A stretch of DNA of 32,164 nucleotides, taken from Balneolia bacterium (GTDB lineage: Bacteria; Bacteroidota; Rhodothermia; Balneolales; Cyclonatronaceae). The position numbers and the translations under genes are program-made. Numbering within the stretch: position 1 is the first letter of the stretch; each line of letters opens with the position of its first letter. Shown here piece after piece: positions 6,274-25,318 of the stretch. Where the stretch lies: assembly GCA_003555145.1 (NCBI GenBank), contig PWID01000292.1, positions 1-32,164 on the forward strand, read 5' to 3'. The notes beneath the pieces are model-generated. The model worked only from the letters and a program-made list of their open reading frames with translations. It had not been told where the DNA came from and searched no databases.

Positions 6274-6289
6274 TGCAAAACGTGTGCCA
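6274..6289 (-). promoter_or_regulatory. Sigma-54 (RpoN)-type -24/-12 promoter, P1
   Basis: On the minus strand the sequence reads TGGCAC-ACGTT-TTGCA: the -24 GG is at 6288-6287 and the -12 GC at 6276-6275, exactly 12 bases apart as in the RpoN consensus TGGCAC-N5-TTGCA. The predicted transcript start is about 6263, 31 bases before the ATG of the WecG-like gene at 6232. The match is complete; in vivo use is inferred. Confidence 0.8.
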
Positions 6290-6309
6290 TAAGCATGTAT
6301 AATATTCAA

Positions 6310-6324
6310 AACAGGTTCCCTGTT
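6310..6324. promoter_or_regulatory. Perfect 6-3-6 palindrome upstream of P1
   Basis: AACAGG-TTC-CCTGTT lies in the 156-base gap between the formyltransferase stop and the WecG-like start, centred about 54 bases upstream of the predicted P1 transcript start. It has no T-tract, so it looks more like a protein-binding site than a terminator. The binding protein is unknown, and no copy was seen by eye at the other sigma-54-type promoters. Confidence 0.4.
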
Positions 6325-6388
6325 CGAATAAGAATCATTAATTGAGTTAAAACGAAAACCGGATACTATGTACCTGTAACAATTCTAC

Positions 6389-7336
6389 CTACTCCTGGCA
6401 TGCCCCTGAATCAAAGCGTTTGCCATTAAGTTTCGAAATCTCTTCTTCTGAAAGCTTTCTGGAATTACTGCGCATATCTGTGAGTATGAGGTCGTGGTCT
6501 CCTGTTGCTACGAGAACTCTGCCTTCACTTATTCTAATACTTCCCGGTAAACCTGTTGAGGATTCCGATGTCATTACGCTCTTAGATACAGCATATCTTT
6601 CTCCACCAATATAACTGTAAGGTGTTCCCCATGGAGAAGCAAAGGGCGCATAGTTAGAAGCCCGGATTAACGCATCGGTCTCCGCTGCCGATGCTGTCCA
6701 GTTAATTTCACCGTTTAATGGCACACTATGCTTTTTGTAGTAACTTCTGTTTTCTAAATTCTGAATCCGCCCTTCAGGAATTTGATTCTTAAGCGCATCA
6801 TCAAGAAGGTTGGAAATCATCTCTATACCAGTTTTAGCACATTTTAAACTCACCGATAAACCTGTATCAGTTGCTTCTGCAGGGATACTTCTTTCATAAA
6901 TCACATTGCCCGTATCAACTCCAGCTTCAATCCGGTGTAAAGATACACCGTGTGCTTGTTCGCGGTTGTAGATTGACCAGCTAGGAGTATTTAAACCTGC
7001 ATATTCGGGTAAGAGACCCGGGTGCAAATTATAGGCACCCATTTTGGGGGCAGTTACTACTTCTGGATGGATAAGATATAATGAATGAACATTAAGCAGG
7101 ATGTCGATTTTTTGCTTAAGCATCCACTTGGCAAATTCCGGCTTTTTAACATTTTCAGCTGGGAATACAATACATCCAAAACGTTTTGCCAGGGTATGAA
7201 CCGGCCCCGCTGTATGTTCGTCGCCCGTTCCGGTAAGTACCGCCTTGAGTTTAAACTCTTCTTTTCGACTTTGGATTAGCTTTAGTGTTTGAAGACCGGC
7301 AGACTCTTCTGCTGCAAGCAGGACATTCAAGGCCAT
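6389..7336 (-). CDS. Sugar N-formyltransferase-like protein (Fmt/ArnA-N fold)
   Basis: A 315-residue formyltransferase. The N-terminal catalytic domain (1-190) has the family triad: Asn103 and His105 in AYNLHPGLLPEYAGL (101-115) and Asp141 in HRIEAGVDTGNVIY (134-147). The C-terminal domain resembles the Fmt/ArnA OB-fold region: LNGEINW followed by ASNYAPFASPWGTPYSYIGG parallels the I-[DN]-W and PxPGAxSY signatures of enzymes that formylate amino sugars. It would transfer formyl from N10-formyl-tetrahydrofolate to an amine. Because of the EPS setting, an amino-sugar (UDP- or dTDP-linked) acceptor is most likely; an aminoacyl-carrier acceptor from the adjacent cassette is the alternative. True methionyl-tRNA formyltransferase is less likely here. 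It is divergent from the cassette (344-base gap). Confidence 0.8.
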   Translation of the reverse strand: MALNVLLAAEESAGLQTLKLIQSRKEEFKLKAVLTGTGDEHTAGPVHTLAKRFGCIVFPAENVKKPEFAKWMLKQKIDILLNVHSLYLIHPEVVTAPKMGAYNLHPGLLPEYAGLNTPSWSIYNREQAHGVSLHRIEAGVDTGNVIYERSIPAEATDTGLSVSLKCAKTGIEMISNLLDDALKNQIPEGRIQNLENRSYYKKHSVPLNGEINWTASAAETDALIRASNYAPFASPWGTPYSYIGGERYAVSKSVMTSESSTGLPGSIRISEGRVLVATGDHDLILTDMRSNSRKLSEEEISKLNGKRFDSGACQE

Positions 7337-7680
7337 ACAGTTATAAAGTATTTATTGATATTTGATTGAAAACTGATGTAATTTACAGTGTGAAAAATTG
7401 ATACACTGTGTCAGCAGTGTACGGTGTACATACTGCAGAAAATTAATGCATACAAACAGATTAAGAATATGCAGGATAAATACTAAAAATAATACTGCTT
7501 GTTATCCTTTTCAGCCAGAGTTGGTTTTTTTTAATGTAAAAGTTTCATGATTGGCATATCTCTTGCACTCTCGTTAATATCGTTACATCTTTAGGAAGAC
7601 GCCGTTACATATTTTACAGATTCTACACACTGAACTTTCAATTAAAAGTTGGGTGACATTAAAGTTCGCACTCATTTAAT
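7337..7680. promoter_or_regulatory. Divergent intergenic region with clustered inverted and direct repeats
   Basis: These 344 bases hold no convincing gene. Contents from left to right: CAGTGT (7386-7391), ACACTG (7403-7408) and CAGTGT (7415-7420), giving two overlapping inverted repeats; a GTAC-rich stretch (7418-7430); an RpoN-type promoter (7551-7567); then in the predicted leader an 8-base direct repeat CGTTACAT (7581-7588 and 7603-7610, 22 bases apart), and GAACTTT (7632-7638), which can pair with AAAGTT at 7645-7650 or with AAAGTTC at 7661-7667. The inverted repeats lie about 160-190 bases upstream of the predicted start, where enhancer-binding activators of sigma-54 usually bind. Confidence 0.5.
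7551..7567 (+). promoter_or_regulatory. Sigma-54 (RpoN)-type -24/-12 promoter, P2
   Basis: TTGGCAT-ATCTC-TTGCA: the -24 GG is at 7553-7554 and the -12 GC at 7565-7566, with correct 12-base spacing. The predicted transcript start is about 7578, giving a leader of about 100 bases before the ATG at 7681. It would drive the four-gene monooxygenase/adenylation/ACP/GNAT cassette. Confidence 0.8.
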
Positions 7681-8700
7681 ATGATGAACATAAACCTATT
7701 TACCACTACCCCGCAATCAGTTGACTTTGAAGGACCTGACTTTCTGAACGAATTAAAGAAGATTGCCAGGTTAAGTGAAAAGCATGGTTTCAGAGGTACA
7801 TTAATCTACAGTGATAACAGACTGGCTGATCCCTGGACACAGGCTGCACTAATAATGAATGAAACCAAAACACTGCTGCCCATGGTTGCGCTTCAGCCGG
7901 TGTACATGCATCCTTATACCGTCGCTAAGAAAATTGCAACTCTTGCCTTATTGTATAACCGTCCGGTAGCTATGAACCTGATTGCCGGGGGCTTTATCAA
8001 CGACCTTAAAGCTCTTAATGATAACACTCCACACGATAAGCGATACGACCGCCTTTGTGAGTACACGGAAATTATTCAAAAGCTTCTCACCTCCTCTCGC
8101 CCTGTTTCTTATGATGGGGAGTTCTATACAATTAAAAACCTGAAGCTTCAACCTGAATTGCCTTCAAATCTTCTTCCTGAATATTATCTTTCGGGCTCAT
8201 CTGAAGCAGCTAAGGATACTGCAGCAAGATTAAATGCAACACTTATTGAATACCCCCAGCCTCCACAGGCTTATGCAGGCGAGAATGGTGAAAACGCGCG
8301 CAAGTTGGTAGGTATTCGTGTCGGCGTGTTGGCTCGAAAGAACCACAAAGAAGCCTGGGACCTTGCCCGCGAACGTTTTCCTAATACACGTGAAGGTCAG
8401 CTATCTCATATACTGGCTACAAAGGTTTCAGATTCAGAGTGGCATAAGACTCTCTCCACGCAGGAGGCCGGAGAAGAGCAGGAGGAACGCGAACCTGTTT
8501 ACTGGATGGGACCGTTCAAACACTATCAAACATTTTGTCCATATTTAGTTGGCGATTTAGATGAGGTTGCATCAGAGATTCGCAATTACATAGAAAAAGG
8601 TTGTTCACTATGTGTACTGGATATACCAGTTAGTGAAGATGAGCTGAAATTTACTGCCGAGGCATTTAAAAGAGCTAATGAAATGGCTTTTGCAAAATGA
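7681..8700 (+). CDS. LLM-class flavin-dependent monooxygenase (SsuD/natural-product type)
   Basis: A 339-residue bacterial-luciferase-fold protein. Signatures: an N-terminal strand with FTTTPQSVDF, a substrate/flavin-side segment RPVAMNLIAGGF (94-105), the block HDKRYDRLCEYTEIIQKLL (118-136) followed by YDGEFYTIKNL (144-154), and EYYLSGSSEAAKDTAARL (167-184), all typical of SsuD-like FMNH2-dependent monooxygenases. Members take reduced flavin from a separate reductase and insert one oxygen atom; relatives are embedded in nonribosomal peptide clusters. The next gene overlaps its stop by 4 bases (ATGA), so the two are translationally coupled and probably act on the same intermediate. No flavin reductase is encoded in the window. 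Desulfonation cannot be excluded, but the neighbours favour oxidation of an activated amino acid or related group. Confidence 0.85.
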   Translation: MMNINLFTTTPQSVDFEGPDFLNELKKIARLSEKHGFRGTLIYSDNRLADPWTQAALIMNETKTLLPMVALQPVYMHPYTVAKKIATLALLYNRPVAMNLIAGGFINDLKALNDNTPHDKRYDRLCEYTEIIQKLLTSSRPVSYDGEFYTIKNLKLQPELPSNLLPEYYLSGSSEAAKDTAARLNATLIEYPQPPQAYAGENGENARKLVGIRVGVLARKNHKEAWDLARERFPNTREGQLSHILATKVSDSEWHKTLSTQEAGEEQEEREPVYWMGPFKHYQTFCPYLVGDLDEVASEIRNYIEKGCSLCVLDIPVSEDELKFTAEAFKRANEMAFAK

Positions 8701-10298
8701 TGATTTACGATTATTCGCGTCTTCAAGCTGAGAAAAGGCCCGATGCGCCTGCTATTACAATGGGTAACAAATCTGTTACTTACAGAGAACTTGAAAAAAA
8801 GAGCAACCAGTTCGCTGAATTACTCATACAAAATGGTCTTAAACCGGGAGACCGTGTTTGTCTTTATGCTGAAAAACGTCCTGCCACCATTATAGCAATG
8901 CTTGGGGTTATGAAAGCAGGTGGAGCTTATGTGCCCCTGGACATTAACAGCCCGGCCGAACGAATTGTGCGAATGATTCTTTCAGCATATCCTGCGTTTT
9001 TACTTATAGATGATGCTTCTATAGCAACATACCCTGATTTAGTATCCACAGACAGCTCTGTCTCCAGGATACCGTTGATCTGGTGGTCAGAAAGTGTTTC
9101 ACGGCAAAACCTATCCAATGTATCATTTTCACTTAGTGATTTAGCAGAAGTAAAGAATATACCCCACGTAGTTGTAAGGGATGCTGAATCAACTGCCCAC
9201 ATATTGTTTACCTCCGGATCAACAGGTTTACCTAAAGGAGTGGTAATTAAGCATATCAATGTAACAGCTTTTGTTAACTGGGCCGTATCCTATTTTAACA
9301 TGAAGCCTGGTGAGCGGAATTCCGGCCACTCTCCCCTGCACTTCGATTTGTCTACCTACGATATTTATGGAACATTCGCTGCAGGCGGTGAGCTGTTCCC
9401 TGTTCCGGTAGATATGAGCGTCCATCCGGCCAAGCTCGTTTCATTTATAAAGGATAATAATCTTGATCAGTGGTTTTCTGTACCATCAGCGCTTAACTAT
9501 CTGGCACGTTTCAAAGCCATACCAAAAGAAGGCTTTCCGCAGCTAAAACGGCTAATCTGGTGTGGTGAAGTGTTCCCGTTGCCAGGGTTACAGTATTGGA
9601 TGGAAAACCTGCCGAAGGTGCAGTTCACAAACCTTTACGGGCCCACTGAAGCCACAATTGCAAGCAGTTACCACACGCTTTCAGAAATTCCTGAAAAAGA
9701 CATTCCTATTGGTATGGCTTGCGATAAAGAGGCATTACTTGTACTTGACGAAAATCTGAAACCCGTTCTTGATGGCGTAAAGGGGCATCTGTATATATCA
9801 GGAGCTGGATTAAGCCCCGGTTACTGGGTTAGTCCGAATCCTGAGGTAAATCACACCTTACCGACATCTCCTTTCAGGAGTTTTATACATGAAAATGGAG
9901 ATACAGAACGTATATATAAAACCGGAGATCTTGCATCAGTTGGTAAAAACAGCCTTGTATACTTTCATGGCAGAGCTGATTACCAAATAAAAAGCAGAGG
10001 ATATCGTATTGAATTAGGTGAAATTGAAGCAGCACTTGGCACAAGCCAAATCTTGCGTGAATTTGCCGTAGTACCCGTTGAAAAAGGTGGATTTGAGGGT
10101 ACATCAATTGGTTGTGCTTTTGTGTTATCTGATACTGCTGATACGAATACTCGACCGGAACCTAAGCTAAAAAAAACACTACAACAGCTTGTTCCTCCGT
10201 ATATGATTCCTCATTTTTGGAGAGCGTATGATAAGCTTCCAAGAAACGCCAATGGTAAAATTGACCGAAGAAAGATTTCTGATCATTTCGAAAATTAG
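8697..10298 (+). CDS. Stand-alone amino-acid adenylation enzyme (NRPS A-domain type)
   Basis: 533 residues covering a complete adenylation domain and nothing else. Core motifs: A3 FTSGSTGLPKG (171-181), A4 HFDLSTYDIYG (215-225), A5 NLYGPTEAT (312-320), A7 YKTGDL (407-412), A8 GRADYQIKSRGYRIELGE (425-442) and A10 NANGKID with Lys521. Asp217 aligns with GrsA Asp235, the residue that holds the alpha-amino group, so an amino-acid substrate is likely. By hand alignment the ten-residue specificity code is D-L-Y-S-I-C-L-I-A-K. The first three positions recall glycine/cysteine-type codes, but the whole does not match a code I know. It would form aminoacyl-AMP and load the ACP at 10339-10599. It overlaps the monooxygenase gene by ATGA; Met2 (8700) is an alternative start. 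Confidence 0.92.
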   Translation: MMIYDYSRLQAEKRPDAPAITMGNKSVTYRELEKKSNQFAELLIQNGLKPGDRVCLYAEKRPATIIAMLGVMKAGGAYVPLDINSPAERIVRMILSAYPAFLLIDDASIATYPDLVSTDSSVSRIPLIWWSESVSRQNLSNVSFSLSDLAEVKNIPHVVVRDAESTAHILFTSGSTGLPKGVVIKHINVTAFVNWAVSYFNMKPGERNSGHSPLHFDLSTYDIYGTFAAGGELFPVPVDMSVHPAKLVSFIKDNNLDQWFSVPSALNYLARFKAIPKEGFPQLKRLIWCGEVFPLPGLQYWMENLPKVQFTNLYGPTEATIASSYHTLSEIPEKDIPIGMACDKEALLVLDENLKPVLDGVKGHLYISGAGLSPGYWVSPNPEVNHTLPTSPFRSFIHENGDTERIYKTGDLASVGKNSLVYFHGRADYQIKSRGYRIELGEIEAALGTSQILREFAVVPVEKGGFEGTSIGCAFVLSDTADTNTRPEPKLKKTLQQLVPPYMIPHFWRAYDKLPRNANGKIDRRKISDHFEN

Positions 10299-10338
10299 CA
10301 TCAAAAAGAATAATCTAAAATGAAACTGTTCTGATAAA

Positions 10339-10599
10339 ATGGCAAACGCTACATCTAAACAAGATTCAGTCGAAACACGTGTGCATATGGTTCTTTGCGA
10401 CTTGTTGTTAATGGATGCCCTGGATCCCGATGTTGATCTTTTCGAAGAGGGATATCTGGATTCTATGGCTCTTGTAAACCTGATGATGGCACTCGAACAA
10501 GAATTCGGAATTGTAATCGCACCTGAAGATCTTGATATGGAAGACTACCGAAACCCTGAACGCATTAAGGCAATGATAAGCCGTATGCAGGCGGTTTAA
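10339..10599 (+). CDS. Acyl/peptidyl carrier protein
   Basis: An 86-residue acidic helical protein. The sequence EEGYLDSMALVNLMMAL (36-52) contains the D-S-[ML] phosphopantetheine site, with Ser42 predicted to carry the arm. The second conserved block, EFGIVIAPEDLDMEDYRN, is the usual helix II-III region. It lies 40 bases after the adenylation gene and 20 bases before the GNAT gene, so it is the presumed acceptor of the activated amino acid. It is not next to fatty-acid synthesis genes, which argues against its being the housekeeping AcpP. A phosphopantetheinyl transferase must come from elsewhere in the genome. Confidence 0.92.
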   Translation: MANATSKQDSVETRVHMVLCDLLLMDALDPDVDLFEEGYLDSMALVNLMMALEQEFGIVIAPEDLDMEDYRNPERIKAMISRMQAV

Positions 10600-10619
10600 G
10601 GTTAATACTTTATTCTCTT

Positions 10620-11738
10620 ATGAAAATAACTGATACTGAAAAAGATAACGCAGTTAAGCGAAAATTCTCAATACGGGCTTTTACTCCTGATGATATTGAG
10701 GCAGTCGTTGATATGTCGCGCATCCATTTTCCTCAGTGCTCCCTGGTTTCTCCCGGCTATTTGTATGAAACAATTGATGAACTGTATTTCAAGGAGACGT
10801 TAAAGATAGAGGGCATCAACAGCCTTGTTTCTGTTGATGAAAACGAGGTTATAAATGGGTTTCTAGGAGTAACACCAAAACCCTATTTATATCAGGGTGA
10901 GAAGGTGCTTGGTGCTTTATGCAATCACCTTATGGCATCTGATGAAGCGCGTGCTGCGCTTGTGCCGATGAGACTGCTGCAGGAGTTTTTATCAGGACCT
11001 CAGGTGTTTTCTTTTGCGGACGGGTCAGTAGAATCTACAAGGCTTTTATGGAAGCGACTAGGAGGTGAGCCATCTTACAGTAACAGCGTTTATTATAAAG
11101 TGCCACTCCGCCCTATGTCTTTTGGTACCCGACCTTTCCAGAGTCACTTGCCATCATCACTTAGGAGTTCAATTAAAAAAATAAGCTACGGTGCAGACTT
11201 TCTTTTTGGTGTTGCGCGCCTGCCCTTATCCTACAGGATCCGACCGGATTTAACGCTTAAACCGATTGAAACGGACGGAATTTTAACAGGTTTAGCCAGA
11301 GTGTGGAAATATTTTAAACTCATTCCGGATATTTCGAAAAAAGAGCTAAGTAAACTGTTCGAGCTCTTAGACAAAGACCCAAGAAACGGAAATCTTCATA
11401 AAATTGGCATCTGGAATAAGCGGGAAGTACTCATTGGCTGGTTTATCTACTACTCGTCTAAGGGCGGCGTTTGTGAGGTTATGCAGGCTGTTTCTCTTCC
11501 TGGCAAAGAAGCAGAGTTGTTTGAATCAATAACATGGCATGCCTTTTCCGAAGGCGGAACAGAGCTTTCCGGTCGGGCGCTTCCATCGCAAATAGGCACG
11601 CCATTTACTACGAAATCATTCAGTATGCCTGGCCGGATGTGGACACTTTTTCATAGTAAGAACGATGAAATCTGTAGAGCATTACAATCCGACGGAGCTT
11701 TCTTAACCCGTATTGAAGGTGATTTGTGGCTCATATAG
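10620..11738 (+). CDS. GNAT-superfamily acyltransferase, last gene of the carrier-protein cassette
   Basis: 372 residues. The N-terminal part (about 15-170) looks like a GNAT fold: FSIRAFTPDDIEAVVDMSRIHF at the start, then a central strand region around NEVINGFLGVTPKPYLYQG and VLGALCNHLMASDEARAA. The C-terminal half (about 220-365) could be a second, degenerate GNAT-like lobe (LIGWFIYYSSKGGVCEVMQA). Such double-lobed proteins occur in EPS loci with stand-alone ligases and carrier proteins. The most economical role is transfer of the (oxidised) aminoacyl group from the ACP to an amine or hydroxyl of a sugar; this is inference from gene order. The first 10 residues are weakly conserved-looking, so the start is likely but not certain. 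The gene ends before a strong terminator. Confidence 0.7.
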   Translation: MKITDTEKDNAVKRKFSIRAFTPDDIEAVVDMSRIHFPQCSLVSPGYLYETIDELYFKETLKIEGINSLVSVDENEVINGFLGVTPKPYLYQGEKVLGALCNHLMASDEARAALVPMRLLQEFLSGPQVFSFADGSVESTRLLWKRLGGEPSYSNSVYYKVPLRPMSFGTRPFQSHLPSSLRSSIKKISYGADFLFGVARLPLSYRIRPDLTLKPIETDGILTGLARVWKYFKLIPDISKKELSKLFELLDKDPRNGNLHKIGIWNKREVLIGWFIYYSSKGGVCEVMQAVSLPGKEAELFESITWHAFSEGGTELSGRALPSQIGTPFTTKSFSMPGRMWTLFHSKNDEICRALQSDGAFLTRIEGDLWLI

Positions 11739-11819: not shown

Positions 11820-13034
11820 TTACTTAGAGTCTCGCTCTGTCCGAACCCAGTCTACTTCCCGCCCCTTACGCCAGGTATTCAAATAGAGCCGCAGTTTCCA
11901 AAATACGTACTTAGGTAAATGCAGTAACGACTTATACAACTCTTTGTCTGCTCCTCCGATGTACAGGCAAAGAAAGACGTAGAAGAATCCTACGAACCCG
12001 AGCATCAACCACAGAAAGGCAAGGATGGGAGAAAGGAATCCCAGTAATGCCAGAACTGCAGAAAGTATAATCATCACAAGCGTAATGGCCATCATATTAA
12101 CAAAAGGTGGTGTTATCAGATCCAGGAATGTATCAAGTCTGGACAGTGATCTTTTTACGAGGGCATCCTTCAAAAAAGAACCTGCGTAAGTTCGTATGAT
12201 TTGGAAACGGCCAATTTCCCATCTCGAACGCTGTGACTCTGCATTACTGGCTTTTACTGGCATTTGGGCCCATACGGTAGCCTCAGGAGCAAAATCAATA
12301 CTTTCTCCGGCTTGTATTAGAATAAGACCATACTCAACGTCTTCAGTTAAAGACCAGGCCTTCCACGGGGTCTTTCTCAAAACATCCGCGTGAAAACACA
12401 TGCCGTTACCACGAAGCCCCATATTAAACCCCAGTGCTTTTCGGCCAAGCGGCTTCACGTAATTATACATCATAAATCCGATTCGGGTGGCCTCAATACT
12501 CCAGTTACCAGGTTGTCGCAACACCAGGTCCGAGCTTTGTATTACACGGCTTCCATTATCCAGATAATGATTAAGCACCTCCAGATAATTGCCTGACGCA
12601 AGACTGTCGGAATCGATTACAATAAAAGCATCATAGTCAGATTGATTATTTATGATGCTTTCAGCCATAATGGTGTCGAAAGCCCATCTAAGAGCATGGC
12701 CTTTACCCTTCTTTGTTTCATGGGTACGTTCCAGAACCCTGGCCCCCAGTCTTGATGCAATCTCGGCAGTCTTATCGGTACAGTTATCGGCAATTACAAA
12801 AACATCATACAACTTCCTGGGATATACCAAGCCTGAAAGACTGTAAATAGTCTTTGCGATCATCTTCTCCTCGTTGTGCGCAGGCACAACTATGGCAAAC
12901 CTACGCTTTGTGCTGCTATTAAATTCTGTTTTTTTCTTAGCACCTAACGCGATTACCGCAAGAATAAACTGGTAGCCTAAAAGCAAAAAGAAAACGCTGA
13001 AAAGCAGAGCAAAAATGGTGTTGGCGAAGATCAT
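11820..13034 (-). CDS. Membrane GT2 glycosyltransferase with QxxRW motif
   Basis: 404 residues: N-terminal membrane helix (about 5-31), cytoplasmic GT-A domain, and two or three C-terminal helices (about 312-360). GT2 motifs: IVVPAHNEEKMI (48-59), VIADNCTDKTAEIA (80-93), DSD at 141-143 (donor/metal site), TEDVEYG (230-236, catalytic-base region) and QRSRW (268-272). The QxxRW pattern is a mark of processive beta-glycan synthases such as cellulose, chitin and hyaluronan synthases, although non-processive members also carry it. Its start codon overlaps the stop of the GH9 gene (ATGA), so synthase and glycanase are coupled. Donor sugar and linkage cannot be read directly. Confidence 0.9.
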   Translation of the reverse strand: MIFANTIFALLFSVFFLLLGYQFILAVIALGAKKKTEFNSSTKRRFAIVVPAHNEEKMIAKTIYSLSGLVYPRKLYDVFVIADNCTDKTAEIASRLGARVLERTHETKKGKGHALRWAFDTIMAESIINNQSDYDAFIVIDSDSLASGNYLEVLNHYLDNGSRVIQSSDLVLRQPGNWSIEATRIGFMMYNYVKPLGRKALGFNMGLRGNGMCFHADVLRKTPWKAWSLTEDVEYGLILIQAGESIDFAPEATVWAQMPVKASNAESQRSRWEIGRFQIIRTYAGSFLKDALVKRSLSRLDTFLDLITPPFVNMMAITLVMIILSAVLALLGFLSPILAFLWLMLGFVGFFYVFLCLYIGGADKELYKSLLHLPKYVFWKLRLYLNTWRKGREVDWVRTERDSK

Positions 13035-14758: not shown

Positions 14759-14768
14759 TACAACTAAT

Positions 14769-17017: not shown

Positions 17018-18316
17018 TTATTTGTCATCATATACTTTTTCTTTTAGTCGCTGCGCTCTGAACTTCGCATATGAAACCGGCATCTTGAGCAGGCCGTGGT
17101 TTATGTATTGAACCTGCATAAGCTGAAATTCTTTATTTGTATGTTTATACAAAAAAGATAACATTCGGGTCGCACTCTTAAGGGGTTCCAACTTCTTTTT
17201 TACTTTATAATGCTCACTAATTAAAACACTGTAATTTGAGAATGCTTTATCCGTAAAATCAAATTTATAGGATTCTGCTCCACGCAAAAGTTCTACCCTG
17301 CTAACACCCTGCTTAATACCATCTTCGATCAGGTCGAGTAAAAGCGCTATACCCGGGCGATATTTTGATGACGGTGATGAATCGCTAAAGCCGCTGATGT
17401 AATCATAATAGCGGTTATTATACTTTATTAGCATACGGGAGGCACAAACGCCATTATCATCGACTGCATGTTTGAGCCACAAAGACTTATTATCAAATGC
17501 ATCAAAAACAATTTTACTGAAGAATGCTACGAAACGCTTATCAAAGAATACGCCCGTGTAACCAAGCATATTCCAGCGCGATTGATGCAGCTCAATTATA
17601 TGATTTATGGCTTTTTCAACGCCATCCCGGCTTGTTACTTCAGTAATTTGGTAACCGTTTTCAGTTTCTGGTTTTTGTGCTTTCAGACACTGTCTTAAAC
17701 GACGCCTTACGCTTCCAGAATCTTTATTTTTAATAAAAGAAGCTAGGTCACTTTCCCCTTCAAGTACTATGTAAGGGCATGTGTCTGATTTTTCGACATT
17801 AACGCTTCTGTTCAGAGAATTGAATCTGGGGAATAAGTGATTATAGATGAAGCTCTCCCCGCTTACGTTTACAAGGTAAAGCTTATAATCTGCAAACGTA
17901 TCCTCATCCATTAGTTGGAAAAAGAAATCTGCCACTTTCTCTTCAAATCCGGGCTTTACAAGTATATCCAGAAAATCATTATAACCGTAAGAATCGGAAA
18001 AGCCCAAAGACTCGTTTCTGTTTCCACCGCTACCTAAAAGCTGAATCCTCTTTTGAGTCTCTTTACCAAGAAGGCTACTTTTACCTGTAAAGAAAGGAAA
18101 GATAGCCACCATTTCATTATTTTCGTAAACGCAATGAATGAACAATTTACGATTAGGATTGTCGCCAAATATATCCCACCAGCTACATATCCAGCTGTAA
18201 GACATAAATACAGTTTGATTCGACTCTGATGCAAGGGTTTCCCAATCTTTTTGCAAACTCAAAAAGGAAGATTTGTCTCTGAAAACTTTAACAGTCAGGT
18301 TGTTTATGGATCTCAT
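17018..18316 (-). CDS. BioF2/CelD-like GNAT acyltransferase (Acetyltransf_6 type)
   Basis: 432 residues, cytoplasmic, no signal peptide. The N-terminal motif LQKDWETLASESNQTVFMSY with SWICSWWDIFG (about 20-52) is the hallmark opening of the CelD/BcsL and FemAB-like acetyltransferases. The central block around SVRRRLRQCLKAQK and the C-terminal GNAT lobe (HQSRWNMLGYTGVF, then YYDYISGFSDSSPSSKYRPG and VSRVELLRGAESYKFDF) follow the same family. Related proteins occur in cellulose and EPS loci and in XrtA-linked EPS loci, and probably acylate sugar amines or hydroxyls. It is last in the Wzz-to-GNAT operon, 35 bases after the GT4 gene. The acyl donor is unknown. Confidence 0.85.
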   Translation of the reverse strand: MRSINNLTVKVFRDKSSFLSLQKDWETLASESNQTVFMSYSWICSWWDIFGDNPNRKLFIHCVYENNEMVAIFPFFTGKSSLLGKETQKRIQLLGSGGNRNESLGFSDSYGYNDFLDILVKPGFEEKVADFFFQLMDEDTFADYKLYLVNVSGESFIYNHLFPRFNSLNRSVNVEKSDTCPYIVLEGESDLASFIKNKDSGSVRRRLRQCLKAQKPETENGYQITEVTSRDGVEKAINHIIELHQSRWNMLGYTGVFFDKRFVAFFSKIVFDAFDNKSLWLKHAVDDNGVCASRMLIKYNNRYYDYISGFSDSSPSSKYRPGIALLLDLIEDGIKQGVSRVELLRGAESYKFDFTDKAFSNYSVLISEHYKVKKKLEPLKSATRMLSFLYKHTNKEFQLMQVQYINHGLLKMPVSYAKFRAQRLKEKVYDDK

Positions 18317-18351
18317 GATTGGTTTTGGTGCTTTAAAATGAGCAGGTCCTG

Positions 18352-19599
18352 CTAAGCGGTTGCAGGTTCTGAAGAAGAATGTGAAGATGTTTTTAGACTA
18401 TTTTCCGAAAACATATGCGATATACATGTATCGATTTCTTTGCAGACGCTTTGCCAATCGTATTTTTCATGAACTAGTTTATGCCCGTTTTCGCTAAGTT
18501 TTGACCTTAGTTCATGGTTTTCAAATAGCCTCATTACCGCATCGGCAAAAGCTTTGGGATCGTCTTCAATAAGGATATTCTTTTCTCTGGTTACATCAAT
18601 ACCTTCACAGCCAATGGAAGTTGATACAACCGGCTTTTTCATAGCAAGAGCTTCCATTACCTTAAGTCGTGTACCACTTCCCATACGCAGTGGCACCACA
18701 TAAACGGATGCTGCATTTATATAGGGCCTTGTGTCTTCTACGAACCCCGTAATTATTACATTTTCAGATGCCTGGCTGGTAATAAACTCAGGGGTATTTT
18801 TACCCACAATGGTAATGGTACAATCCGGATACTTTTTTAATACATGGGGGAATACTTCTTCCAGAAAAAACTGAATCCCATCATAATTTGGCACATATCC
18901 CATCATTCCGACAAAAACCAGAGAATGTGGGTGTTGTATATTCTCGTCAGGCGAAAAAAAAGTGGTATCTACTCCATTAGGGACAAGATATTTAGGTACG
19001 CCGGGGACAGTTATCTCTAACTCGTCGATATCCAGATTACTTGTTACAAGCAGAGCGTTCTGCTGTCTGAGAGCTTCCGTTTCTTCTTTAAAAAAGATAT
19101 CAGCCTGCTTTTTATAAAACCACCTTTTGAGAAGACCGGATACCTGCGTCATTCTGCGGAAGTTATCGTACTCAACATTATGGCAATTTATAATGCTTTT
19201 TACGCTGTATTTGGACGTATACATTCCAATTACCGGGAATTCACTTATCACAAGATCAAATTGTTCTTTTTTGAACAAATTATCGATTATTCGTTCGAAT
19301 TCGACCGATTGGGTTAAAAGCCTCCAGGCGCTTGTATTTGTAAGCACAGATTTTAGCTTAACGATTTCCCTTGAAAGTCCTTCATTTACATGATTATGAA
19401 AGTATGATTTACCTTTCAGTTGGGGGAATTCCTGTATGAGCATCTCTTCCTGCTCTTTTGTTCCGAAACCTGCTACAGTAACATCATAATTATTTAGCAG
19501 ATGCTGTAAAACATGATAAATCCTTAATGCTCCACCAAAATCTGGTTGTACCGGATTGTACGGTACAAGGTGCAAAACTTTCAAGTTAGAGTGTCTCAT
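18352..19599 (-). CDS. GT4-family glycosyltransferase (EPS type)
   Basis: 415 residues, GT-B fold. N-terminal lobe: VLHLVPYNPVQPDFGG (8-23, glycine-rich loop) and SIINCHNVEYDNFRRM (135-150). C-terminal lobe: LVFVGMMGYVPNYDGIQFFL (227-246) and VPLRMGSGTRLKVMEALAM (302-320) with KKPVVST after it, the nucleotide-sugar binding region. This architecture (MxYxPNxD... and GSGTRLKVxEALAM) is the one seen in the sugar transferases of XrtA/PEP-CTERM-type EPS loci and many capsule loci. Its ATG overlaps the flippase stop by 4 bases (ATGA), implying coupled translation. The last ~20 residues are Ser-rich and probably disordered. Confidence 0.9.
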   Translation of the reverse strand: MRHSNLKVLHLVPYNPVQPDFGGALRIYHVLQHLLNNYDVTVAGFGTKEQEEMLIQEFPQLKGKSYFHNHVNEGLSREIVKLKSVLTNTSAWRLLTQSVEFERIIDNLFKKEQFDLVISEFPVIGMYTSKYSVKSIINCHNVEYDNFRRMTQVSGLLKRWFYKKQADIFFKEETEALRQQNALLVTSNLDIDELEITVPGVPKYLVPNGVDTTFFSPDENIQHPHSLVFVGMMGYVPNYDGIQFFLEEVFPHVLKKYPDCTITIVGKNTPEFITSQASENVIITGFVEDTRPYINAASVYVVPLRMGSGTRLKVMEALAMKKPVVSTSIGCEGIDVTREKNILIEDDPKAFADAVMRLFENHELRSKLSENGHKLVHEKYDWQSVCKEIDTCISHMFSENSLKTSSHSSSEPATA

Positions 19600-21098
19600 T
19601 TCTTTAGATGTAAGGTGATTTTTTTCAGTCCGTTGCGTATTTGATCGCTGATTAGTTTTTCTTCCTCAGGTTTGAACGTTTTAATTATGTAGAGAGCTAT
19701 CAGATAAACAATACCCGCAATTAGCAGATTAATAATCCAGTACAGTCCGGTCTGGATTAATAATAATACCGGCAATACCATGATTACAGTTGCCAGCAAT
19801 GGTTTGGCTATGTAGGAGAGCTTAAATCCGGAAAAATAGGTGCCGGGCAAAATCCAAATAGCACAGACCATAACAAAGGTCTCCGTTATTAATGTTGCGA
19901 TTGCGGCGCCAATTCCACCATTCATGTAAACATCCTGAGTATATGGTATTAGTATAATGTTGGAGATGATATTCACGAATATTGCCAATAAGCCTACTAT
20001 TGCCCAAGCATTTTGTTTGTTAGCAGCACCCATAATTGCGCTACCCAAAATTATATCGATATAGATTATCGGTATGCTTAAAGCAAATATTTGCAGTATT
20101 AAAACGGAAGCGCTGTATTCTTCCAACCCCATAAAGAAGTGGATTATATTTTCGGAAAAAAGAAATATTACGGCGGCTGTTGGAATTCCCAGTATTAACA
20201 TCAGTCTAATACTTTCCTGAAGAGTAGATTCAAGAATCCCTTTTTTGTCGTTCCAGAGCTTGGAAAATACTGGAAAAACTGCTGTTCTGTAAAGTAGTGG
20301 CAGTACCATTACTATATCGAAAAAGCGATAAGCACCACCGTACCAGCCTGTAACTTCGGTTGAAGTCATAGATGCGAGCATGAGTGCATCGATTCGATAA
20401 TAAATCACAGAAAAAAGTGAGAACAAAAAGTAAGGCATGCCTGAGTGTAACAGCCCGAATATTTGCTTATCGAACGTGTAGCTAATCTTTACATATCTGC
20501 GCGAATACCAAAAGACTACTAAAAGATTAAGAAATGCACCAATAGTAATAATAATGGCCATCGTGGTAGAATCGGCTCCATATAACAATGCCATTACAGA
20601 TACAGCTGCTACAAACACGCGTTCGGTTATGGTGCCAAGCGATGGATACTCCATTTTCTCTATACCCTGGAAAAAGGCGGAAAATGCAGTTGTGCTACCT
20701 TCCCAAAGTTTTGCTATTGCAAGAATGAGTATGAGAAGATTAACATGATCAGAATATCCCAATAAATCAGAGAACAAAAGGATAGCACCTATAGAGAGTA
20801 GCCATAAACCAATGCGAAGCAGTATGTAACTGCTCATTATCTTAGAACCGACTTTAACAGATCTGGAAACTTCTTTAGGAATAAGATAATTACCGCCAAA
20901 ATCAATCAGAAGGCCAAGTATCATCTTTACACTAAGCGCAAGGTATAGCCTCCCAAAGTCTTCGCTTCCAAGGTATCTGGGAAGAAAGTAAAGAAGTATG
21001 AATCCTGCAATCCAGCCAACAATCTGAGCAGCAAACATAACCGAAAAGTTACGAGCCACTTTTTTGCCAATGGATTTTTTTGTGTCCTCTGGGGCCAT
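19596..21098 (-). CDS. Wzx-like polysaccharide flippase (MOP/MATE superfamily)
   Basis: 500 residues with about 12-14 membrane helices. The N-terminus (KKVARNFSVMFAAQIVGWI, then RYLGSEDFGRLYLALSV) is the standard start of the polysaccharide-biosynthesis MOP flippases: an amphipathic helix followed by the YLG-x-[ED]-x-[FY]-G motif. It should move the lipid-PP-linked repeat across the inner membrane. It starts one base after the stop of the Wzy-like gene and overlaps the GT4 gene by ATGA, so the three are tightly coupled. Wzx and Wzy side by side indicate a Wzx/Wzy-dependent pathway rather than an ABC-transporter route. Confidence 0.92.
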   Translation of the reverse strand: MAPEDTKKSIGKKVARNFSVMFAAQIVGWIAGFILLYFLPRYLGSEDFGRLYLALSVKMILGLLIDFGGNYLIPKEVSRSVKVGSKIMSSYILLRIGLWLLSIGAILLFSDLLGYSDHVNLLILILAIAKLWEGSTTAFSAFFQGIEKMEYPSLGTITERVFVAAVSVMALLYGADSTTMAIIITIGAFLNLLVVFWYSRRYVKISYTFDKQIFGLLHSGMPYFLFSLFSVIYYRIDALMLASMTSTEVTGWYGGAYRFFDIVMVLPLLYRTAVFPVFSKLWNDKKGILESTLQESIRLMLILGIPTAAVIFLFSENIIHFFMGLEEYSASVLILQIFALSIPIIYIDIILGSAIMGAANKQNAWAIVGLLAIFVNIISNIILIPYTQDVYMNGGIGAAIATLITETFVMVCAIWILPGTYFSGFKLSYIAKPLLATVIMVLPVLLLIQTGLYWIINLLIAGIVYLIALYIIKTFKPEEEKLISDQIRNGLKKITLHLKK

Positions 21099-21099
21099 T

Positions 21100-22665
21100 T
21101 TATTTTTGCCCGTCTTCTCCAGGGGGGGGAGTCAGATCGTCTTCTTTTTCTTCTTCCCTGCTTATTTTTTCGATAACCGGCAGCATTCCCATAAGGCACC
21201 CCAGATAAAACATATTACGGGAGTAAGTAAGCTGCAGATCAAAAAAAGACACCACCATTTGGTTTATAACTGCAATAGTAATAACTGCGGTAATGGCTTT
21301 TAACCAGGGATCTTCCAGACGCATGAATACTTTGGTTGATTTCGCTACAAACGAATTAAAGAAAAACCAGAAAATGAAGAATCCTACAGCGCCGGTCTTC
21401 ACTATAACCCAATAAATCTGATTATGTGGTATATAGTCCATCAGAGGAAATGCAATGTTTACCAGAGGTATGGGCTGTTCATATACATTTCCGAAACCTA
21501 CCCCAAGAACAGGATTATTCAGAGCTGTTTGAGCAAGGTTATAGTTTTCGTTTTCACGGTAAAGATTAGAAGAATAATCTCTGTAATTTTCGGTCTTATC
21601 GGCTTGACCTATACCGGATTTGAATTTCTGCACTGGCCCGCCTATGGGGTTAGAAGAATTCCAGAATGCAGCACCGTATATAATAAGACCAATCATGATT
21701 GGTATAAAATAGTGCATGAATACTAACCTTTTGGCCATTGGGAGCAGAATGATAAAGGCGCCAATAGAAACAAAAAGTGATCCAAATGTAGCGCGCCGTT
21801 GGGCAACAAGAAACCCAACAAGAATGGGAAGCAACATAACCAGCAAAAAAATACGCTGCTTGGTATTCACTTTATATGAAATGAATACCATAAGTAGTAT
21901 AAACAGCGTAACCATAAAAACAGCATCTTCGTGGTTGGTTAATACCTGGAAACCACCGGTAGAAAATCCCATGCCCACAAATCGGCTGACTCCCTGTAGT
22001 GCTTTAAACGTAATACCTATTATAAATATCCAAAAAAGCGTGTGGAGTTGTTTTTTTGTGTCCAGGAGCTGTGGCACGATAATGAACATGATACACAGGT
22101 AAAACAGTGCCCGTACTTCCCATAGCGCAACCATAAAATCTCCCCCCCTGCTTATTCCATAGCCAAAGAATCCTACAAGACTGGCCATAAATAACAAAAA
22201 AGGAAAGGGTACTGAAATTGGCTTATACTTGAAGTCCTTGAGGAAAGAGGCGTGAAGTAGCAGACCCGAGCACAAAAAGAAAAGGTGCAGTTCGGCCATA
22301 TTCATAAATCCTGTATGAAAATACGGAATATAAGGTACCTCCTTCAGATTGCTGAAAAAACGAACTTCGAAGGTCCAAGGGGCAAAACCGGGTATGGCAT
22401 ACTGCTCGAAAAGCATTACAGTAGCCATAAGCAGATAAAGACTATATACAGGCTTAATAGCACTTATAAGTAAAACAGTTGTCATATACATGAGGGCAGA
22501 TACCAGAGCGATATTACCATCAAAAACGTACAATCCACCGAATAAAAGCAACGAGAAACCGAGCAAAACCAGCAGCACGGGCGAACTCTCTCTGTCGAGG
22601 CCGAAAATACTAAGAAACGAATCTGTTCCTGAGTGTGTGTAAGATTGAGATTTAACTGAACTCAT
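21100..22665 (-). CDS. Wzy/O-antigen-ligase-like membrane protein (polymerase candidate)
   Basis: 521 residues from the ATG at 22665, with about 10-12 membrane helices. A longer start at 22698 would overlap the upstream 54-codon gene by 20 bases, so 22665 is preferred. The large loop near the C-terminus carries NPVLGVGFGNVYEQP and DYIPHNQIYWVIVKTGAVGF, matching the Wzy_C/O-antigen-ligase pattern of a Gly-rich stretch, then P-H-N-x-[LIV], then a G-x-x-G helix. It would polymerise flipped repeat units on the periplasmic face. It holds two long G-runs (8 G at 21122-21129 and 7 G at 22142-22148 on the coding strand), sites where slippage could occur. Confidence 0.88.
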   Translation of the reverse strand: MSSVKSQSYTHSGTDSFLSIFGLDRESSPVLLVLLGFSLLLFGGLYVFDGNIALVSALMYMTTVLLISAIKPVYSLYLLMATVMLFEQYAIPGFAPWTFEVRFFSNLKEVPYIPYFHTGFMNMAELHLFFLCSGLLLHASFLKDFKYKPISVPFPFLLFMASLVGFFGYGISRGGDFMVALWEVRALFYLCIMFIIVPQLLDTKKQLHTLFWIFIIGITFKALQGVSRFVGMGFSTGGFQVLTNHEDAVFMVTLFILLMVFISYKVNTKQRIFLLVMLLPILVGFLVAQRRATFGSLFVSIGAFIILLPMAKRLVFMHYFIPIMIGLIIYGAAFWNSSNPIGGPVQKFKSGIGQADKTENYRDYSSNLYRENENYNLAQTALNNPVLGVGFGNVYEQPIPLVNIAFPLMDYIPHNQIYWVIVKTGAVGFFIFWFFFNSFVAKSTKVFMRLEDPWLKAITAVITIAVINQMVVSFFDLQLTYSRNMFYLGCLMGMLPVIEKISREEEKEDDLTPPPGEDGQK

Positions 22666-22678
22666 TTTATATAGAAAC

Positions 22679-22843
22679 CTATGGTTCCGGCACTTCAATT
22701 GTACCCATCATGTACAGCAGATAAACCACCATTATTGCAGAAACAGAAGCTGTGAGCATATAGGGTACTTTATCGTTCTTGGTGAACTTTGATCCCCAAA
22801 TAACCAGGAAATGCAGTATTACCAGACCGAACAGGATTTTCAT
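22679..22843 (-). CDS. 54-residue two-helix membrane protein, not in known families I recognise
   Basis: A small frame running from the ATG at 22843 to a TAG at 22681-22679. Its start overlaps the stop of the CpsD-like gene (ATGA), and it ends 13 bases before the Wzy-like start. The product begins MKILFGLVILHFLVIWGSKF (helix 1, about 3-18), has a short polar loop TKNDKVPY, then a second helix of about residues 28-46 (MLTASVSAIMVVYLLYMMG) and a short acidic tail (GTIEVPEP). The ATGA overlap, continuous frame and two clean hydrophobic segments argue that it is a real gene. Placement between the length-control ATPase and the polymerase suggests a small partner of the polymerase or Wzz complex; that role is inference. 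I do not recognise a family. Confidence 0.7.
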   Translation of the reverse strand: MKILFGLVILHFLVIWGSKFTKNDKVPYMLTASVSAIMVVYLLYMMGTIEVPEP

Positions 22844-23559
22844 GACTTTTCCACTTTGTTAAAAACATAGCCGAGAAACTGTTTCTCTTCTATATGTTTA
22901 AAAACTTTCTCGAGCTCTCCTTTCTTGGTTTTATTAGCATTAACTACACTAATAAGGCCGTCAATTTCATTTATGAAGTGAACCGGAAAATCTTCAATCG
23001 GCAGAATGGAACACATATCTACAATTACGAAATCAAACTCATGTTTCACGGTATTTAGAATTTGTCGAAGAACAAGTGTGTGTTCTATACCGGGTTTGAG
23101 CCTGTGTACGTCGCCAATTGGCAATAAGTATAGATTTTCAAATGAAGTGGGTACCACACGAATTTTCTCGTTGCATAACGCTTCGGCAAGACCAGGTGAA
23201 GATTCAGCACCAAATACATGGTGTAAACTTGGCCGCTGAAAGTTCATATCTATAATTAGAGTCCTCTGTTGGTAGCCACTTGCTAGCGAAACGGCCATAT
23301 TGGCCGCAACAACGGTTTTACCGTCTGCTGGCCTTGCGCTCGTTATACCTACAGTTAGCTTGGAGTCTCCAAATGCTTTAGCTAGTCGCGAAAAATTAAA
23401 ACTGTTGTAATGCTTCCACTGGATAATGTCTTTATCCGGTTTTTGCAACACTTCAGCAGAAACCAATACGGGTAACAAGCCTCCGTTTTTCTTCAGAGAC
23501 TTGTGGTCTTTTTGAATAATTGATGTGTTGGATTGCTGCTTCACTTCCTGTGAATTCAT
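22840..23559 (-). CDS. CpsD/Etk-like BY-kinase-type ATPase without a tyrosine tail
   Basis: 239 residues. Walker A: TSARPADGKTVVAANMAV (73-90); Walker A': LIIDMNFQRPSLHHVFG (101-117), where the family usually has LIIDxDxRRP; Walker B: FVIVDM (177-182). These place it with the cytoplasmic ATPase part of bacterial tyrosine kinases that act with Wzz-type proteins in EPS length control. It ends FLGYVFNKVEKS with no cluster of tyrosines, so classic C-terminal autophosphorylation is unlikely. The Wzz-like protein immediately upstream would be its membrane activator, the split two-protein arrangement. Residues 1-45 are a linker of unknown role. Confidence 0.88.
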   Translation of the reverse strand: MNSQEVKQQSNTSIIQKDHKSLKKNGGLLPVLVSAEVLQKPDKDIIQWKHYNSFNFSRLAKAFGDSKLTVGITSARPADGKTVVAANMAVSLASGYQQRTLIIDMNFQRPSLHHVFGAESSPGLAEALCNEKIRVVPTSFENLYLLPIGDVHRLKPGIEHTLVLRQILNTVKHEFDFVIVDMCSILPIEDFPVHFINEIDGLISVVNANKTKKGELEKVFKHIEEKQFLGYVFNKVEKS

Positions 23560-23592
23560 ACAAAGAACTCCGGTTATACCTGTCTGTTTGTT

Positions 23593-24915
23593 TTATGATA
23601 AATAGGCTATGATTGGCTTTGGATACGGCAAATCGGCTTCTTTGCGAATAGTAGTATCCATTACTTCTGCCAGCGACACAAGTCCAACGCCCATTATCAT
23701 ACCTAGTATTAAGCCAATACCAACTATTAATGTACGGTTAGGTGATGTCGGTCTTTCCGGTACATAAGGAGCATCGAGTACCATAAATTGTTCACTGCCT
23801 CTGCGACCAATGTCGCGAGACATTTTAGCCTGTTCAAGTTTTACTTTCATGTCGTTATACAGGCCTTCGTATATCCTGTAGGCAGATTCAGATGAGCCAG
23901 CCTGTTGGCTTGCCACATAAAAACGCTGTATATCTGTAACTACACGGCCACGCTGCTGAGAGAGCTCTGCACGTCTTGTTTCAAGTGAAGAAATTCTGGA
24001 GTCAATAGCAGGCGGGATCCGGTTAACGAGCTGTTGTATTTGCACAGCCATCGACCGGACACGCGGGAAGTTTTCAGTAAACTGCTGTTGAAGAGTATCA
24101 TATTCGTTAATTAATTCTGATAGCTCCGGGCCAAATGGCGTGTCTTCAACCGGAAGTCTGTACAGATAGCGGATTCCATCTGGAGACATTGCCTCTTCTT
24201 TATAATTCTCTATCGCTGTTATCATGTCTTCATATTGATATATTTCCCATTCGATACTTTCGAGCTGGTTTTCAATATTCTGAAGACGTGTCTGCATTGC
24301 AGCAGCATCAGAAGGCAAATCCTGCAGACGTGTAGAAGTTTGATCGGTTTGCTGAGAACGGAGTTCATTTACGGTTTGCTCAAGCTGTTCCAGCTGATTA
24401 CTGAAAAACGTAACCGTTTCTTCATTGGCTCGGTTCTCCAGCCTTAGCCTCGAAGTAATAAAATGGTTGGCCAGAATAGCTGTACCATCACGGGCTCTTT
24501 CCGGGTTCGTATCCTGATAAGTTATTTCAAAAGAATCGGAAGCCCTTGAAGTCGTACGAATATTTTTCCTGAGAGAAGCGATGAGCATCTGCTTTTCTGA
24601 TTCTGTTCTCAGCTGACGGTCTAAGCCAAGGCTATCGATAAGAATCTCCATGGCTGAACGGCTGTAAATAATCTCGTTAAAAGAGTTCAGCCTGTCTTCA
24701 TTAGCTCTTGATATAGCCATATCATACATCATGAGCGGGTTCAGAGTCTCGTCTTTAAGTACTAAAATAGACGTGGATGACTCATATTTGGGTTCGATAT
24801 AATGAAGTGCGACTAAAGCCGCGCCTACAAAGAATACAGGTGTTATTATTAGGAGAAGCCATCTTCTGCGGACAACATCCTTTATATTTTGTACAACTTC
24901 TTTTATGTCGTGCAT
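23593..24915 (-). CDS. Wzz/GumC-like chain-length regulator (PCP family)
   Basis: 440 residues from the ATG at 24915. The frame is open to 24981, but candidate promoter P4 (24958-24974) would lie inside that extension, so the shorter form (MHDIKEVVQNIKDVVRRR) is chosen. Layout: helix 1 about 20-40, a large periplasmic domain with long coiled-coil stretches (about 145-350: the ENYKEEAM region, then ELINEYDTLQQQFTENFPRV), then the proline-rich motif PYVPERPTSPNR and helix 2 (LIVGIGLILGMIMGVGLVSL), ending in a short cytoplasmic tail. This is the polysaccharide co-polymerase fold that sets polymer length. Its partner ATPase is the next gene. Confidence 0.9.
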   Translation of the reverse strand: MHDIKEVVQNIKDVVRRRWLLLIITPVFFVGAALVALHYIEPKYESSTSILVLKDETLNPLMMYDMAISRANEDRLNSFNEIIYSRSAMEILIDSLGLDRQLRTESEKQMLIASLRKNIRTTSRASDSFEITYQDTNPERARDGTAILANHFITSRLRLENRANEETVTFFSNQLEQLEQTVNELRSQQTDQTSTRLQDLPSDAAAMQTRLQNIENQLESIEWEIYQYEDMITAIENYKEEAMSPDGIRYLYRLPVEDTPFGPELSELINEYDTLQQQFTENFPRVRSMAVQIQQLVNRIPPAIDSRISSLETRRAELSQQRGRVVTDIQRFYVASQQAGSSESAYRIYEGLYNDMKVKLEQAKMSRDIGRRGSEQFMVLDAPYVPERPTSPNRTLIVGIGLILGMIMGVGLVSLAEVMDTTIRKEADLPYPKPIIAYLS

Positions 24916-24957
24916 GGTGCAAGTGTATTTATGTGAATCACGTTTGATAGAATTCCT

Positions 24958-24974
24958 AACAATTGCCATGCCAA
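24958..24974 (-). promoter_or_regulatory. Candidate sigma-54-type promoter P4 (imperfect -12)
   Basis: Minus strand TTGGCAT-GGCAA-TTGTT: full -24 element, 12-base spacing, GT in place of GC at -12. The predicted start of about 24947 lies 32 bases before the Wzz-like ATG at 24915. Confidence 0.45.
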
Positions 24975-25318
24975 ATCGCATGATACTCGCAATTATTACA
25001 TTAGACCATCATAATAAAGGTCTTTAGAGTATCTGAAAGCCATATTCTTCGGTTCGCGTTGTCATTAATATTGTGCCTGAGAACTAATATTGATTCAGAA
25101 TTACACATTATCTCATTGCTTATGTAAAGAAGCTACTCATTGTACTGCATAATCAGGCAATTAAAAGCTAAAGAAACCTTAATTAATGTATCTATGCCTA
25201 GATTAAACAACTACTTATAATTGTTTTGAATTAATTATAATTTAGATTGGCACATTTATTGACAAGCTATCTTCAGCACCTTCAAAATGATTTGAATAAA
25301 CTAATTATACACGACCCA
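24975..25318. promoter_or_regulatory. Divergent intergenic region between the Wzz and Wza operons
   Basis: About 340 AT-rich bases with no supported gene. They hold P5 (25247-25263) toward the Wza side, and P4 adjoins on the Wzz side. Also seen: AGACC (25003-25007) pairing with GGTCT (25019-25023), and TGCCTGA (25074-25080) with its inverse TCAGGCA (25153-25159), 72 bases apart. Either could be an activator site, but both are short. Confidence 0.45.
25247..25263 (+). promoter_or_regulatory. Candidate sigma-54-type promoter P5 (imperfect -12)
   Basis: TTGGCAC-ATTTA-TTGAC: the -24 element is perfect (GG at 25249-25250) and the spacing is 12, but GA replaces GC at -12. The predicted start of about 25274 lies 45 bases before the Wza-like ATG at 25319. 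A longer Wza reading frame from a TTG at 25247 begins inside this element and is therefore not favoured. Confidence 0.5.

Follow-up and report, generated by a model that had tools for sequence, protein, structure and literature searches.

What turns on the separate transcription units of an exopolysaccharide (EPS) locus, and what keeps them in check? The question is raised by the window, i.e., the whole stretch of 32,164 nucleotides analysed here (contig PWID01000292.1 of a Balneolia bacterium, order Balneolales), in which an earlier note had pointed to a repeated TGGCAY-N5-TTG element in front of five EPS transcription units and had proposed that the whole locus is under shared control of RpoN (sigma-54). 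The RpoN interpretation of the five sites is strongly supported, and it is likely that they are sigma-54 promoters, that the five EPS units constitute a local regulon and that the activator is, most likely, a complete bacterial enhancer-binding protein (bEBP) encoded on the adjoining contig C208; the actual use of the promoters is a prediction made from the sequence. A second protein of the locus, a bEBP paralogue lacking the catalytic residues (hereafter pseudo-bEBP), may restrain this activator. Genomes are designated below by G numbers and contigs by C numbers.

Five candidate promoters and their conservation

The canonical sigma-54 promoter has a GG at -24 and a GC at -12 separated by a fixed spacing (TGGCAC-N5-TTGC). 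Exact matches to TGGCAYNNNNNTTG are found at five places in the window and at no others:

6274..6289, minus strand: site before the WecG/TagA-type glycosyltransferase gene (exact match 6276-6289); orthologous sites in G003 and G001
7552..7567, plus strand: site before the cassette of luciferase-like, adenylation, acyl carrier protein (ACP) and GNAT-like genes (exact match 7552-7565); orthologous in G003, G052 and G001
16854..16869, minus strand: site before the operon for a deacetylase, a family 4 glycosyltransferase (GT4), a family 9 glycoside hydrolase (GH9) and a GT2 (exact match 16856-16869); orthologous in G003, G052, G001, G057 and G094
24958..24973, minus strand: site before the wzz-tyrK-wzy-wzx-stp1-femAB operon (exact match 24960-24973); orthologous in G003, G052, G001, G002, G057 and others
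25248..25263, plus strand: site before the wza-porQlike-pseudoEBP-wecA/PGPT-acetylT-GH5 operon (exact match 25248-25261); conserved, including the distant G055, G019 and G073

The sites reported earlier are therefore all present, and shuffled sequences, with a mean of 0.78 matches, never reached five in 100 trials. The -24 element and the spacing fit the sigma-54 consensus at all five sites and the C at -12 at two of them; as had been read before, a full TTGCA is found only at 6274..6289 and 7552..7567, the remaining three sites having TTGT, TTGT and TTGA. With +1 set 12 nt past the -12 base, the predicted transcription start precedes the start codon by 31 (wecG), 34 (deacetylase), 32 (wzz) and 45 (wza) nucleotides, the very range of 31-45 given earlier for four of the five, and by ~103 in the case of the luciferase-like cassette. 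Neither fbp nor the DoxX-like gene nor ade is preceded by a site, as the earlier note had observed, and the same is true of the formyltransferase gene (6389-7336). Since the latter also lacks a site, the proposal of shared RpoN control stands for the five transcription units but is slightly too wide for the “whole locus”, from which formyltransferase, fbp, doxX and ade must be left out.

The presence of RpoN and of full activators, on which the proposal had been made to depend, is borne out by the genome, which encodes RpoN as a 524-aa frame (G000:C140; PF04552, E=3e-54) and three strong bEBPs, in two of which (C280 and C208) the GAFTGA motif was read by script. RpoN was found in 28 of the 30 genomes searched, the present one included.

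Genome-wide, the pattern and its reversed control yield 52 matches each. The rate of 52 per 3.117 Mb corresponds to 0.54 expected matches per window, so that the earlier estimate of chance occurrence was roughly right, and gives a Poisson probability of 2.4e-4 for five or more, a value to be taken as post hoc because the pattern had been picked by looking. The stricter TGGCAYN5TTGCW occurs five times in the genome vs five for its control, without any genome-wide excess; the sequence alone is therefore unspecific, and it is position and conservation that decide. The surroundings of all 52 + 52 matches were classified with one simple codon-score gene-calling script, which sets the wza start too far downstream, promoter position being defined as within 300 bp before a gene on the same strand. 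Nine of the real matches, five of them in the window, are in promoter position and 10 in other non-coding DNA, as compared with one and four of the control matches (9/52 vs 1/52, Fisher p=0.016). Equal occurrence within coding regions, which was to speak against RpoN control, gave a mixed picture: 33 of the 52 matches do lie in coding DNA, yet for the control this number rises to 47 of 52.

For conservation, the EPS loci of nine related genomes were examined. All five sites are at orthologous places in G003, and G001 likewise has five (wecG, luciferase-like cassette, deacetylase, wzz and wza); G052 has four, namely those of wza, wzz, the deacetylase and the cassette, G057 has three and G002 two, while the distant G055, G019 and G027 retain the wza site and G054, whose locus is different, has a site before the pseudo-bEBP gene. 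In these nine relatives' loci the reversed control gave no match in promoter position and a looser control (C2) gave two. Furthermore, a set of 16 EPS loci from other relatives, chosen solely for carrying the pseudo-bEBP and totalling 265,343 bases, contains 37 matches, of which 30 are in promoter position, 5 in other non-coding DNA and 2 in coding DNA, vs two matches of the reversed control, both coding. The sites are thus non-coding, precede genes and are conserved across related loci. When the window is scored with a matrix built from 61 sites of relatives only, the five sites take the top five ranks, that of wza being the highest, a ranking in which the letters of the pattern are fixed by selection and only the flanks are informative; the sites of the relatives show preferences outside the pattern, with T before TGG in 82% and A after the sixth base in 70%.

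The upstream element and the probable local activator

De novo expectation maximization (EM) carried out on 22 upstream regions, after six regions of wzz/wza partners had been dropped as shared, yielded a partly palindromic 17-bp motif, TGTGTAA-N3-TGATAC / GTATCA-N3-TTACACA, with a log-likelihood of 119 vs 61-66 in three shuffled sets, the palindromic model scoring 69 vs 31-41 in four shuffled sets. A hand-made consensus (TGTGTA-N7-TACACA) had proved weaker (16/28 vs a shuffle mean of 3.3 and maximum of 8) and was replaced by this motif. For most sites the motif is located ~95-170 bp upstream, and a second copy is frequently present 30-34 bp away. This distance from the promoter, like the spacing of the pair by about three helical turns, is consistent with an enhancer of the bEBP type, and the 17-bp element is probably the upstream activator site (UAS) of the regulon. 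The predicted copies of the window are:

6373..6393, plus strand: UAS of wecG, 15.4 bits, 104 bp upstream of the site
7387..7407, minus strand: UAS of the luciferase-like cassette, 17.3 bits, 165 bp upstream
16994..17014, minus strand: UAS of the deacetylase operon, 22.0 bits, 145 bp upstream; the sole exact TGTGTAA-N3-TGATAC of the genome
25089..25109, plus strand: UAS common to the divergent wzz and wza operons, 16.7 bits, 159 bp to the wza site and 136 bp to the wzz site
25121..25141, plus strand: weaker second copy, 6.0 bits, 32 bp from the first

When the matrix was kept fixed and applied to the 16 further loci, a partial hold-out with many loci in genera used for training, 22 of 28 promoters had a UAS at p<=0.05 and 26 of the 28 best hits fell at -170..-95, the other two of the 30 promoter-position sites having too short an upstream stretch. 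The pairing was analysed in the 14 regions with any second copy of at least 4 bits (divergent neighbours merged, and 6 of 41 regions without a 7-bit UAS dropped): a second copy at 30-34 bp is present in nine, vs a mean of 0.51 and a maximum of 4 over 200 shuffles. Sites of at least 15 bits number one in 322 kb of other DNA from the same genome vs four in the window, a comparison that is partly circular, the matrix including the window's own sites.

The right end of the window overlaps the start of contig C208 and the gene order is the same in G003; the locus therefore continues on C208:

31765..32164, no strand: right end of the window, overlapping C208:1-400 with few differences (sequence comparison; shared 77-mer)
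C208:2227-3216, minus strand: complete bEBP (PF00158, PF02954)

Differences at a few bases between overlapping contig ends are as expected of a strain mixture in a mixed-sample assembly. After the overlap comes a second GH5-like gene (C208:624-2165), in tandem with that at 30575-31837 of the window, and then the complete bEBP, which possesses GAFTGA, Walker A, Walker B DE, the arginine fingers and a Fis helix-turn-helix (HTH), but neither a receiver nor any other sensor domain. Its gene is present in 22 of the 26 genomes carrying the pseudo-bEBP (E<=1e-85), in 18 of these 26 on the same stretch or contig, the adjoining contig being counted for the present genome. The co-occurrence of the two genes (22/4/6/96; Fisher p=1.5e-15) is not corrected for kinship; two of the six genomes having the bEBP without a listed pseudo-bEBP, G016 and G109, possess a divergent AAA+ protein by the WecA/PGPT gene, located in G016 between the PorQ-like and WecA/PGPT genes and cut in G109 by the contig end. 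It is most likely the C208 bEBP that recognizes the UAS: bound to the paired 17-bp elements ~95-170 bp upstream, it would loop the DNA and open the sigma-54 promoters through ATP hydrolysis.

Several observations weigh against this reading. Outside the window the excess of matches in promoter position is not significant (4/47 vs 1/52, p=0.19). The canonical C at -12 is missing from three of the window's sites; among the 61 sites of relatives T is more common than C at this position (54% vs 29%), so that the TTGT of the window looks like a habit of the clade rather than decay. The relatives themselves are non-independent samples. As to the UAS, a matrix trained without the present genome and G003 scores the window's own sites weakly (p 0.05-0.26), four of the five p-values of G003 being 0.002-0.03, and training on these two genomes finds the same motif and recovers 9 of 18 other promoters at p<=0.05; none of the five promoters of G027 has a UAS at this threshold, which is reached by two of eight in the distant G055, G019 and G027 together, and a UAS-like pattern with up to two mismatches is common genome-wide (58 vs 44 for the control). 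Finally, the complete bEBP was not found in four of the 26 genomes with a pseudo-bEBP (G002, G090, G091 and G103, assemblies 62-98% complete).

The catalytically dead paralogue and the rival explanations

Because the complete bEBP is without a sensor domain, it needs control in trans, and the best candidate for this role would be the following product of the wza operon:

27015..27836, plus strand: pseudo-bEBP with a Sigma54_activat-family (PF00158) AAA+ domain and no HTH (family match, alignment, model and fold search)

The protein was found in 26 of the 128 genomes of the order, and none of the 26 aligned sequences retains the GAFTGA loop, the Walker B catalytic Glu or either arginine finger, Walker B reading DQ in 19 and the Walker A Lys being kept in 25. 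The close orthologues stop before the HTH and therefore cannot bind DNA by the HTH route; the distant ones inspected (G055, G019 and G027) have longer C-termini with HTH-like remnants. The structural model has a mean pLDDT of 77 and its best fold matches are bEBP AAA+ domains, FlrC and NtrC1 first, with VpsR structures among the matches. The nonsynonymous divergence (dN) from G003, 0.114, is within the range of the neighbouring genes (0.03-0.31), which argues against decay; synonymous divergence between the two genomes is saturated, so that dN alone, and not dN/dS, could be used. A scan of a collection of genome contigs with the pseudo-bEBP alignment retrieved just ordinary bEBPs, ~26-33% identical. 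Being made from the wza operon, the pseudo-bEBP is inside the regulon, and in G054, G064, G059, G068, G061, G066 and G065 a sigma-54 site directly precedes its gene.

The pseudo-bEBP might enter the activator ring and damp the activator as a dominant-negative or threshold subunit, thereby establishing negative feedback by ring poisoning, a proposal that we advance tentatively and to which we give somewhat less than even chances. No such system among bEBPs appeared in the literature searched by titles and the beginnings of abstracts, and to our knowledge negative feedback of this kind has not been described for these proteins. A different role, unlikely yet a serious contender, is that of a bEBP-derived, nucleotide-binding component of the machinery that assembles or exports EPS, in keeping with the location of the gene between those of PorQ-like and WecA/PGPT proteins, with the preservation of this neighbourhood in many genomes and with the missing DNA-binding domain of the close orthologues; in the seven genomes just named, however, no PorQ-like, Wza or WecA neighbour was detected, whereas the pseudo-bEBP gene is still close to that of the complete bEBP, with a sigma-54 site immediately before it.

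As to the activator, the promoters could be driven by another bEBP, the locus bEBP controlling something else. Strong bEBPs are indeed encoded on C280 and C22, that of C280 having a receiver domain and being NtrX/NtrC/PEP_resp_reg-like over its full length, and G054, G061 and G068 possess a second copy of the locus-type bEBP away from EPS genes and sites (G054:C23, G061:C18 and G068:C2; ~61-64% identical to the C208 protein), with no non-coding TGGCAY-N5-TTG site in the 20 kb inspected. This alternative is nevertheless improbable, insofar as the C208-type bEBP is encoded within the EPS locus and accompanies both the pseudo-bEBP and the sites, and as the genome's four other promoter-position sites are without the local UAS (best score 2.4 bits), as expected if other bEBPs serve these. 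That the matches are due to chance or to some other conserved non-coding element, the operons being read from housekeeping promoters, is very improbable in spite of the equal genome-wide counts, the three non-canonical -12 elements and the choice of the pattern after looking, given the 30 to 0 ratio of promoter-position matches in the 16 further loci, the flanking preferences and the paired UAS at bEBP-like distances. Sigma-54 promoters served by the C208 bEBP remain the preferred reading of the five sites.

Neighbouring genes and comparison with known systems

The genes of the five units are:

5456..6232, minus strand: WecB/TagA/CpsF-family glycosyltransferase (TIGR00696 above cut-off)
7681..11738, plus strand: luciferase-like monooxygenase, amino-acid adenylation protein, ACP and a last gene without family match, which we take to be GNAT-like
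11820..16809, minus strand: deacetylase, GT4, GH9-like and GT2 (family matches)
17018..24915, minus strand: FemAB/GNAT-like protein, glycosyltransferase, Wzx, Wzy, tyrosine kinase and Wzz (family matches)
25319..31837, plus strand: Wza, PorQ-like protein, pseudo-bEBP, WecA/PGPT fusion, acetyltransferase and a last gene without NCBIfam match, presumably GH5-like

The cassette at 7681-11738 adjoins the formyltransferase gene and is kept with its sigma-54 site in G003, G052 and G001; together the two suggest that the polymer is decorated in an unusual way, with acyl groups or amino acids. A small Hpt-domain protein (4992-5372), a possible signalling input, adjoins the WecG-like gene. The association with XrtA suggested in the earlier note did not hold, all matches to XrtA-associated models being below their cut-offs and no exosortase being encoded at the locus; the sole exosortase-family match was on contig C238.

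Elsewhere, TGGCATCAATATTGT is found without a local UAS upstream of a gene assumed to be of the FkbH/HAD type both in the present genome (L141:1501-3012; G000:C348) and in G052 (L311:6112), the two proteins being 68% identical. Similarly, TGGCACTATGTTTGCC occurs without a local UAS 30 bp before the start of a small heat-shock gene, Hsp20-like by our assignment (L139:1501-1970; G000:C332), which is possibly a separate sigma-54 target. In G052 a sigma-54 site and a 17.8-bit UAS at -121 precede L050:4201, judged from its N-terminus to be presumably a glucosamine-fructose-6-phosphate aminotransferase (GlmS); if so, the supply of sugar precursors would be tied to the regulon in that genome.

That sigma-54 governs features of the bacterial surface is well established, and in Proteobacteria the combination of a sigma-54 promoter and an enhancer box is known from the vicinity of EPS genes. 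PspF consists of an AAA+ domain and a Fis HTH only and needs control in trans, being held by PspA, a non-AAA+ protein. The complete C208 bEBP has the same domain content, but scores 267.5 bits on TIGR02974, below the cut-off of 443.55.

EPS genes are among the expected targets of sigma-54 according to Francke 2011 (PMC3162934); PMC9850573 reports RpoN dependence and a mapped start for one PEP-CTERM-box-type gene, and a survey of sigma-54 regulons (PMC12316311) names EPS-type COGs, among others in Myxococcia, the strings “balneol” and “rhodotherm” being absent from this survey. Literature searches retrieved nothing on RpoN in Balneolota and, judged by title, nothing related on EPS in Balneolales.

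The closest parallel is the PrsK/PrsR-PEP-CTERM box system, compared here through the text of Haft 2006 (PMC1569441), where it is described as found in Proteobacteria only. There too a sigma-54 motif and an upstream 17-nt motif, which ends in TTTACA, precede EPS-linked genes, and the Fis-type bEBP is usually encoded near EPS genes; however, PrsR has a receiver domain and a kinase, its targets are PEP-CTERM protein genes and the spacer averages 63 nt, whereas the present system has no receiver domain, has the EPS operons themselves as targets, a longer spacer and often paired copies, and has the pseudo-bEBP in addition. The C208 protein was rejected as a PrsR, with 292.5 bits on TIGR02915 vs a cut-off of 502.6 and no receiver domain; we are therefore dealing with a known type of control in a variant that is new in its parts, a complete circuit of promoters, paired UAS and local activator being readable from the sequence outside the PrsR system.

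As for the pseudo-bEBP, a bEBP AAA+ domain without GAFTGA is shared with TyrR, DhaR, HupR and VpsR, the last of which also controls polysaccharide production (Francke 2011, PMC3162934); unlike these, the close pseudo-bEBPs have lost the HTH as well and adjoin an intact paralogue in a sigma-54 locus. The Glu-to-Gln change of Walker B seen in 19 of 26 pseudo-bEBPs is that of PspF E108Q, a laboratory mutant which, according to PMC4132715, still fully remodels RNAP-sigma-54 and indicates that a subunit so altered can still form rings; unlike this mutant, the pseudo-bEBP is devoid of the GAFTGA contact loop. A conserved dead paralogue thus offers a concrete and testable proposal for the restraint of a sensorless bEBP and, if the proposal is true, a two-protein AAA+ device made of a sensorless, PspF-like activator and a dedicated dead paralogue encoded within the regulon would govern a sigma-54 EPS regulon.

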